Made by a program: the position numbers and the translations under genes
Shown: one piece after another, positions 43,737 to 46,588 of the stretch
Layout of the letters: every line of letters starts with the position of its first letter
Position numbering within the stretch: position 1 is the first letter of the stretch
The notes under the pieces: model-generated
Databases searched by the model: none
Seen by the model: the letters and a program-made list of their open reading frames with translations, nothing else
What the model was told of the DNA's origin: nothing
Source of the DNA: Nitrospira sp.
GTDB taxonomy: Bacteria; Nitrospirota; Nitrospiria; Nitrospirales; Nitrospiraceae
Reading direction: 5' to 3'
DNA length: 64,000 nucleotides
NCBI GenBank assembly: GCA_030123565.1
Contig: CP126122.1
Span: 1,313,001 to 1,377,000, forward strand

Positions 43737-45635
43737 TTACTCGCGAATGAATTGAGCCGCGAAACTGCGGATGTCATGGCCGTTCAAGACGTGGAACCGC
43801 CGCAAACGGTCGATCAACTGGCCCGAAAACCGGCTCAAGGGAATCGGGACCAGCCGCCGGTCGAACTGTCCGGCGATCTGCCGCCACCGAGCCTTCGGCG
43901 GCACCGGCGTGACGAGGGCCAGGTGCGTTTCACGGGAATGGACGGCTCCCGCCGCGATCAAACGTTCTTCGAGCGTCTTGGCGAAGCCGAGCGCCTCGTC
44001 GGTCCAGATGTCGGGAATGGGACAGGGAGGAAAGATGAAGAGCGCGCCGCCATAACGGGATTGCCCGATGCCTGGCGCGACCATGTTGTTCAAAAACGGC
44101 GTGGCGTAGAAGCAGAGGGTGGACTCCTGCGCATGTTCTGCATACCAGGTGGCCTGCCAGCTGTAGGTATCGGGATCGGCCGGGGTATCGAACAGAAAAA
44201 TGACTGTATCGACGTTGCCGCGGGCGGGCGGAATCTCTTTGACATAGATCTCCAGCCGCTTCGGATTGCCCGGTTTCTGCCGTTGGTGCCAATGGCGCAG
44301 ACTTTCCCTGAGGTCGATACCGTCTTTCATCGAGGTCGTGAATTTCTCACTCTTGGCCAGGTCAGACCCGATGATCGCCTTGGCCTGCTCGCGCACGTGC
44401 GTGTGGAAACTTTCGATCTTCGAATCCTCCGGCGGCCAGGAACATTGCCGATGCGGGTTCCAGAGATAGGACCAACGCCGGCTCGTGCGGCGCGGCGGAC
44501 GGGGCCGGAGAGACAGAGAACGCCAGACCAAGGGCGTCCCTTGGAGTCGATTGACGGCCCGGACGACGTGATCGTCCGGCAGTTCGACCTGGCCGAGTCC
44601 GGCCGACAGCCGCGGAAGATGAGACTGATCGATGGCCTGATAGGCATAACTCTTGGCGGTTTCCAGGAGGTGGATCGCAAAGTCGTCACCCGCCATCTGT
44701 TTGGCAGCGAGCACCAGCGTGTAGAGGTCCGGCGTGAGGCGGCGATCCAGGAGCGCGTGATTCCGGACGTACTGCAAATACGATTGGAGTAATTGAGGCG
44801 TGACCCAGTCCGGGACCGTCCGGCCGTCCTCATCGTGAGCGGTTTGCCAGCGCCCGCGGGTTTCGAGCAGCAGTTCCTTGATGCCGTCGATGGAGAGGTG
44901 GCGGTCTGAATGGACGGTGGCGCGCCGTCGCTCATACAGTTCGGTCAGGAACGGCAGTTCACCCAAGACAAAATAGAGCGAGGCCGGATCGACGAGGTAC
45001 CGTTCCGGCCTGCCCATGGTCGGCTCGTGGGTGTGATAGTCGGCTCGTTGCCCATAGGCCTGGCGAATCCAGGGCCAATCCGCGAGATGACACAAGCAGA
45101 GAATGTGCTCGTACTCCATTTCCAATTGATGGAGTTGGAACGCCGTCCAGGCAATGCGCGCCTGCTGTTGGGTCCCTTCCGCCGGCTGCACAAGGGTGGG
45201 CACCAGCGCGGCGGCGAAGGCCTCGTAGGACAGGTGCTTGAGGACATAGGCATCGGGCGAGACGAAAGGAGCCGGCTCGACGGCAGTGACCTCGCGGTCG
45301 ATATAGGCACGAGGGATACCTTCTCCCATCGCAACGCGAATGCCCATGATGACGGCCTGGCAGGGATCGACCGGCACGTAGTTTACCGCCGCGTCGCCAT
45401 CACGACCTCGCTCCTGCTGAACGACCAGGCTGATCGTCGGCAAGTCGGCGACGGCCTCTTCAAGCGGACGTTCGAACGAGGGCGGCAGCGGGACGGCCAG
45501 GCAATCGCACCGGCGGTCGATCAGCCGGTCACGCACCTCCTGGGCGACATCGCCGCTGCCGTGGAGGATCGGAAACAGTTCAATGCGCGGCGAGAGGCGG
45601 AGGACGGAGTCGGTGATGGAAGGTGGCACTGCCAT
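43737..45635 (-). CDS. Unrecognised 632-residue protein paired with MoxR ATPase
   Basis: I do not recognise this protein. Its ATG overlaps the MoxR stop as TAATG, so translation is coupled. It has no signal peptide or membrane segment. The N-terminal 60 residues ([20 protein letters not shown] then [12 protein letters not shown]) weakly resemble TraB/DUF5682-type proteins found beside MoxR genes; this is a guess. No von Willebrand A motif (DxSxS) is seen, although MoxR partners usually have one. The C-terminal 150 residues look structured ([39 protein letters not shown]). Compact Cys-His patterns (CLCHLADW) occur in the middle. Confidence 0.8.
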
Positions 45636-46588
45636 TATCGGCCGGGATGGAGTGGGTCGTCGCTCTCGAAAAAGAAATCGCCGAGGCCCTGCGGCAGGGC
45701 CTGGTCGCCCAATGCACGCTTGCGCCGGCGCGATTGGGTCGGCAGGTCCAACGCTTCCTCGCCCAGCACCTTGATGAGGGATTCCCGCCAGGCTGCGTCT
45801 GCCGAGAGCGGATGGGCCTGGTCCTGTGCGCGGCGTTTCAGGGCATATTGCAGCAGGTGAATGCCGTCGCGCACCGAATAGTCCAGGCTGAGTTGATGCG
45901 CCTCCTGCAGGAACTCGACGGTCATGGCCAGCAGCTCCGCCGGGGCGAAGGGCAGGTGGTAACGCAGAATCGCCAGTTCGTTTTCCCTTGATGGGAAACC
46001 CATGCCGAGCGTCGGTTGCAGGCGCGACAGGATATAGTCCGGCACCTCGTAGGTGGAGGCATCTTCGTTCATCGTGACGCAGCAGCGGAAGTCCGCATGG
46101 GCCTTGATCAGGATGCCCGCGATGATCGATTCGACGCAACGCCGGTGGTCCAGCAGCGGGGCGAGCGAGGCCCAGCTTTTCTCATTCATACGGTTGCCCT
46201 CGTCCAGCACGCAGATGCTGCCGGTGAGTACCGCGGTGACCAGTGGCGAGGCATGGTAACTGATGGTGCCGGACTCGGCCAACACGGGGGTGATCAAGAG
46301 GTCTTCTGGGCGCGTATCCGCCGTGCACTGAAAGACATAGAGGTCCTGCTTGCGCTCGCGGGCCCCCGCCATCGCCAGGGTCGTCTTGCCGATGCCCGGT
46401 TGGCCGGTAATCCGTGGCGACAGGGGCAGGTCGCGTTCGTCGATCACGAGCCAGCAGGCCAGGAGCTGTTTGAGAATTTCCCGATTCCCGATCCATTCCT
46501 GCCCCATGGTCATGGGCTGCGCCAGGTGGAGGGTGATGCCTTCGACGGCGAGGGTGCGGGCGGCGGTCGGTTGTGCGTTGGGTGCCAT
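45635..46588 (-). CDS. MoxR-family AAA+ ATPase
   Basis: This 317-residue AAA+ protein has Walker [10 protein letters not shown] (62-70), Walker [11 protein letters not shown] (Asp129-Glu130), and a sensor-type TMNEDAS. MoxR ATPases act as chaperones that insert cofactors or remodel partner proteins. The ATG at 46588 is the best start by family length; open sequence further upstream is not family-like. No ribosome binding site is obvious. It starts a three-gene minus-strand unit with the 632-residue protein and ligA. Confidence 0.85.

Follow-up and report, generated by a model that had tools for sequence, protein, structure and literature searches.

An undescribed pair of a MoxR ATPase and its partner protein in Nitrospirota and several other bacterial phyla

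MoxR ATPases are widespread, their partners usually carry a von Willebrand A (vWA) domain, and their mechanism, as worked out so far for NorQD, CbbQO and RavA-ViaA, rests on such a partner. The window analysed here, a stretch of 64,000 nucleotides from a Nitrospira genome (contig CP126122.1, positions 1,313,001 to 1,377,000), contains a moxR gene followed by the gene of a large protein (Table 1), and an earlier note had proposed from the sequence that the two are coupled, that the second lacks a vWA signature and that together they might be an undescribed system. This raises the question of whether the two genes indeed form one MoxR system and, if so, what takes the place of the vWA partner in it.

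Table 1. Positions in the window of the pair, the gene downstream of it and the predicted domains of the partner
Feature	Position	Strand	Description
moxR	45635..46588	-	317 aa, stop TAA
partner gene	43737..45635	-	632 aa, ATG start, stop TAA; without a named family of its own
ligA, NAD-dependent DNA ligase	41717..43729	-	7 bp downstream; outside the conserved unit
partner N-terminal domain	44961..45596	-	residues ~14-225; TIKI-superfamily fold, DUF5682/YehM-related
partner middle helical region	44487..44960	-	residues ~226-383
partner C-terminal domain	43740..44486	-	residues 384-632; most conserved part

A two-gene unit across phyla

The last A of the moxR stop codon is also the first base of the partner's ATG, which gives the TAATG junction on which the earlier note had built its claim of coupling; ligA, with its ATG at 43729, lies behind the pair at the distance given there. 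Among 61 Nitrospirales genomes, which as related genomes are non-independent samples, the partner was found in 43 and a MoxR of the same subfamily in 42, always as single copies; 41 genomes have both genes and 17 neither, the three exceptions being a decayed locus (G054) and contig fragments with the partner (G055) or the MoxR (G035). Wherever both are present they are adjacent on one strand (41 of 41), with the identical one-base overlap in 26 genomes, and the claim of coupling is thereby confirmed. At the decayed locus (L044, G054:C1:1633000-1645000) moxR has been lost, the partner persists as remnants and a ligA-like ORF adjoins it.

Across 84,980 species genomes the search recovered 434 relatives of the partner, the best 80 of which come from Geobacteraceae and other Desulfuromonadia, Acidobacteriota, Myxococcota, SAR324, Thermodesulfobacteria and Chlamydiae. 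The two proteins co-occur in Nitrospirota, Desulfuromonadia/Desulfobacterota, Acidobacteriota, Myxococcota, SAR324 and Chlamydiae. In 114 of the 127 wider loci with a MoxR in the fetched DNA, its gene is directly upstream of the partner, and in the remaining 13 a same-strand moxR lies 0.3-7 kb upstream. The subfamily MoxR is likewise present in all 11 partner-positive genomes compared across phyla, including eight in which the genes are unlinked, and in none of 15 partner-negative genomes, whose best matches (~1e-12) are generic. Thus the genes are nearly always adjacent rather than usually separate, and where they are apart both are present. Finally, in an acidobacterial metagenome-assembled genome (L132:7146-9950) the MoxR and the partner are fused in frame into a protein of 939 aa with no intervening stop, which may be a single-chain version of the same machine. 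As joint loss, fusion and co-presence without linkage all agree, the pairing is strict, and these comparisons indicate that the pair is a real, widespread and old module. The SAR324 genome G428 has two pair-type MoxR copies, neither of them found in the 8 kb that precede the partner gene.

The MoxR of the window has the expected motifs, namely a Walker A (GQPGIGKTT), a Walker B (CVLDEGN), a sensor 1 (TMNED) and an arginine in SRLQP, and it matches Pfam AAA_5 with 62.8 bits (cut-off 22) and likewise AAA_3 above its cut-off; by these signatures it is an intact MoxR AAA+ ATPase. Pairwise comparison with its counterparts from the pairs of other phyla gives identities of 50% or more, against ~30% for the CbbQ proteins, the nearest MoxRs outside the pair subfamily. 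Its best bacterial matches are CbbQ (E 1e-10) and GvpN (2.9e-7), the latter far under the family cut-off. When scored pairwise it matched CbbQ with an E of 6e-14 and gave no match to YehL, and a YehL-type assignment was therefore rejected. The pair MoxRs accordingly appear to constitute a tight subfamily found only together with the partner and, among the bacterial MoxRs compared by pairwise scores, the window protein seems closest to CbbQ/NorQ. The Nitrospirales MoxRs also bear a conserved C-terminal tail of ~40 residues (45638-45780 in the window), absent from the pair MoxRs of other phyla, which may be a docking peptide.

Domain architecture of the partner

Taken singly, the partner of the window yields no Pfam or NCBIfam match at E<=10, DUF5682 (PF18934) included, for which it misses the Pfam gathering score, and no credible sequence match in the PDB; hits to antibody light chains in the PDB sequence scan, and to sugar-binding and Obg-like proteins, were set aside as chance. 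At the level of the family, DUF5682 is matched by 21 of 58 members (best E 9.5e-7), while others match TraB and ChaN, and one relative (L106), the only one among those scanned singly, passes the DUF5682 cut-off (28.0 versus 26 bits, over ~80 of 727 positions). In a profile comparison by hhalign the partner aligned with E. coli YehM over 193 columns (P 1.1e-5), a score reached by none of 100 shuffled YehM sequences. These profile matches establish the N-terminal domain as a homolog of YehM/DUF5682, with the homology limited to the first third of DUF5682.

An AlphaFold2 model computed from 58 sequences (mean pLDDT 82.9, with residues 348-383 predicted as disordered at pLDDT < 50) points in the same direction. 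Residues ~1-200 matched a Tetrahymena complex IV chain with a VIA Z of 9.7 over 177 residues at 4.3 A, and HopBA1 (5t09, Z 7.2), 3b55 (6.2), PMT (2ebf, 6.0) and RRSP (6a7h, 5.8), all four of them members of the TIKI superfamily (PMC6254334). Tetrahymena complex IV includes a TraB-family accessory subunit (PMC10060162), the matched chain being known here only as a complex IV chain. As modelled, the N-terminal domain has the TIKI core fold typified by TraB, EreA and ChaN. Profile and fold comparison thus support the TraB/DUF5682-like N-terminus suspected in the earlier note, whose description of the partner as unrecognised no longer applies to its N-terminal half and holds for the C-terminal half, which is without a clear known fold. 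The view of the system as undescribed also stands. Neither Pfam nor NCBIfam includes a model specific to the partner family, and the MoxR literature that we searched mentions DUF5682 nowhere.

TIKI enzymes use two histidines and two glutamates in catalysis (PMC6254334), and the candidate counterparts in the partner, assigned by motif and not by superposition, are H25, E29, E49 and H186. These residues are present in most members outside Nitrospirales, and both histidines are kept in 94 of 138 members. In all Nitrospirales, however, E49 is replaced by P, A or G and H186 by D; the window protein retains H25 and has E49P and H186D, and its catalytic motif is thus incomplete. A large acidobacterial group (H25P, H186L/M/V/I) and some Desulfobacterota likewise have a broken site. 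The Nitrospirales partner, judged by these substitutions, is very likely a TIKI pseudo-enzyme.

The C-terminal domain is conserved in a very different manner, with C398-S399, PED, DGIDxRETLR, E500, GPGI and YGG as its characteristic features; D438 and R443 of the DGIDxRETLR element, E500 and the YGG glycine each occur in 135-137 of 138 members. As the N-terminal site drifts while this domain stays near-invariant, the function common to the family probably resides in the latter. Modelled alone (pLDDT 88.5), the domain is predicted to be alpha/beta in its C-terminal half. It has no Pfam relative, and a fold search against the PDB returned no match with Z >= 5, which in itself proves no new fold.

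Three features provide leads, short of proof, for docking of this domain on a MoxR ring. One is the weak likeness of the DGIDxRETLR segment to the finger region that precedes the YehP vWA domain, discussed below. A stretch of 42 residues there also matches residues 412-453 of chain G of the NorQD complex (VIA Z 3.2). In Paracoccus NorD the finger that enters the ring pore comprises residues 403-448, and NorQ is bound by this finger and by the last two residues of NorD, which are needed (PMC13036017). Further, 51 of 58 partner members, outside Nitrospirales, have a hydrophobic [IVL]W C-terminus; the window protein is without a terminal IW and ends in FIRE.

A proposed remodelling machine and its alternatives

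We consider the MoxR-partner system to be genuine and to belong with the systems of a MoxR plus a co-chaperone. In our best reading the pair is a relative of NorQD/CbbQO that is without a vWA domain, or has a very degenerate one, in which the MoxR would be the motor and the partner, which looks like an adaptor or co-chaperone, the adaptor. The two would probably form a dedicated machine that remodels its target with ATP in the manner of NorQD/CbbQO, with the partner replacing the vWA co-chaperone. What follows on the complex, its docking, the adaptor and the class of target is inferred: the MoxR would form a motor ring, presumably hexameric, on which the C-terminal domain of the partner would dock with DGIDxRETLR as a finger-like element, helped outside Nitrospirales by the conserved hydrophobic C-terminus. 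The TIKI/DUF5682-type domain would bind the target, probably a cofactor-bearing enzyme matured by remodelling, and ATP hydrolysis would move the C-terminal domain against the target so held, twisting or opening it. In most lineages the TIKI domain keeps a His/Glu/His site, and in Nitrospirales it would only bind.

The comparison with NorQ/NorD and CbbQ/CbbO lies in the two-gene arrangement of a motor and a large partner, in the apparent sequence affinity of the window MoxR to CbbQ/NorQ and in a partner made of an N-terminal domain, a linker and a candidate ring-docking C-terminal part. It differs in that the partner has neither DxSxS nor a vWA match, that its N-terminal domain is TIKI/DUF5682-like and that the motor is only ~30% identical. 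The E. coli operon yehL-yehM-yehP-yehQ, which encodes a MoxR, a DUF5682, a vWA and a SWIM protein, shares with the pair a MoxR beside a DUF5682-type protein homologous at its N-terminus, and the C-terminal domain weakly resembles the segment preceding the YehP vWA; the pair, however, has no vWA or SWIM gene beside it, the partner lacks most of DUF5682 and the MoxR is not YehL-like. As its motor seems CbbQ/NorQ-like and its adaptor YehM-like, the pair is not just a shortened yehLMPQ operon. A Nannocystis genome has a yehLMP-type MoxR-DUF5682-vWA locus (L141, G418:C776) besides the two-gene system. From the TIKI superfamily at large (TraB/PrgY, EreA, ChaN, HopBA1, RRSP), with which it shares the fold and, outside Nitrospirales and some other groups, the His/Glu/His site, the partner is set apart by its unique C-terminal domain, its pairing with a MoxR and, in the window, the loss of the site. 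The MoxR-vWA conflict systems (eLife 2020, PMC7159879) similarly combine a MoxR chaperone with a co-chaperone; unlike these, the pair has no vWA and no conserved effector or sensor genes nearby.

For the C-terminal domain we consider two readings. The first, held tentatively at slightly less than even confidence, is a new class of MoxR machine without vWA, in which the co-chaperone combines a TIKI-fold domain, an enzyme in some phyla and dead in Nitrospirales, with a ring-docking domain of unseen fold. The second, possible if doubtful, is that the domain is a genuine vWA of the CoxE/YehP type, much degenerated and without its former metal site; the partner would then amount to YehM and YehP, neighbors in E. 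coli, in one chain, and the pair to an ordinary MoxR-vWA system with a fused TIKI/DUF5682 domain. The alpha/beta C-terminal half is consistent with this, and in the alignment DGIDxRETLR..IYVRE is paired with NFDFKSTLRANLQHW..LYIES, immediately ahead of the vWA domain in YehP; against the YehP-type set the domain scored 26.8, above the best of 149 shuffles (22.9), at a weak hhalign probability of 7.9%. The likeness to the YehP finger region is thus weak and the link to the YehP vWA only suggestive, as 6 of 149 shuffles score equally high against the broader CoxE set. Moreover, DxSxS is absent from the window protein, as the earlier note had stated, and from the family consensus, Pfam VWA matches none of 58 members at E<=10, none of the PDB matches reported has a vWA fold (best Z 3.7, a non-excluding result) and the DSSP assignment places extra strands where a vWA has its helix 1; nor does the motor resemble YehL. 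That the partner is instead a TIKI-type hydrolase or peptidase, fed or regulated by the MoxR, would fit the residues retained outside Nitrospirales; we regard it as quite improbable, because a site broken in several lineages beside an invariant C-terminal domain argues against catalysis as the common function.

With regard to the target, two proposals derive from neighboring genes. In many Geobacterales a co-directional hemE-ahbD-hemH block is upstream of the pair, in the order hemE, an ahbD-like radical SAM gene, hemH, moxR and partner on one strand (L079:296-4504, L067, L098-L100), and in Bryobacter-type Acidobacteriota cobA/hemD, hemC and hemA are 1-6 kb away on the opposite strand; further, the TIKI member ChaN is titled a haem-binding family in Pfam. 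A role in maturing haem or tetrapyrrole proteins would be compatible with the remodelling machine, but we think it unlikely: the pattern was noticed after the fact and in essentially two lineages, other Desulfobacterota loci have no haem gene save one Geobacterales-like locus and one hemL, and none is near the Nitrospirales pairs. With haem neighbors absent elsewhere, this is only a lead. Service in DNA metabolism together with LigA, hinted at in the earlier note, seems highly improbable. The genes do share an operon in most Nitrospirales, and RNase H-like entries occur in the fold list of the C-terminal domain; yet ligA is not a neighbor in G040, G067 or other phyla, and those entries (Z 2-3.1) are under significance and heavy with HIV integrase. 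The association with ligA is thus lineage-specific and probably only positional.

If the remodelling machine is as proposed, a pair strict over several phyla would mean that MoxR motors are not tied to one type of adaptor, and a function as adaptors of MoxR would become likely for DUF5682 and YehM; the natural fusion would offer material for structural work.

Gene neighborhood

When neighbors were clustered at 60% identity over 33 partner lineages, no third gene recurred widely, the top clusters being shadow ORFs of the MoxR; the conserved unit is two genes. A PADLOC scan gave nothing for the pair beyond a weak P-loop match, and anti-phage defence was rejected as no model matched. In many Nitrospirales the pair adjoins a block with a divergent LysM-domain gene and trpE-trpG-trpD (46835-50785 in the window). 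Although ligA is expected to be essential, in the single-contig genome G344 it is split over two frames (L043:7647-9787) by a frameshift or an assembly error. In G050 a second, partial ligA-like ORF (L051:998-1693), 69% identical to LigA residues 325-534, is found near a full ligA.
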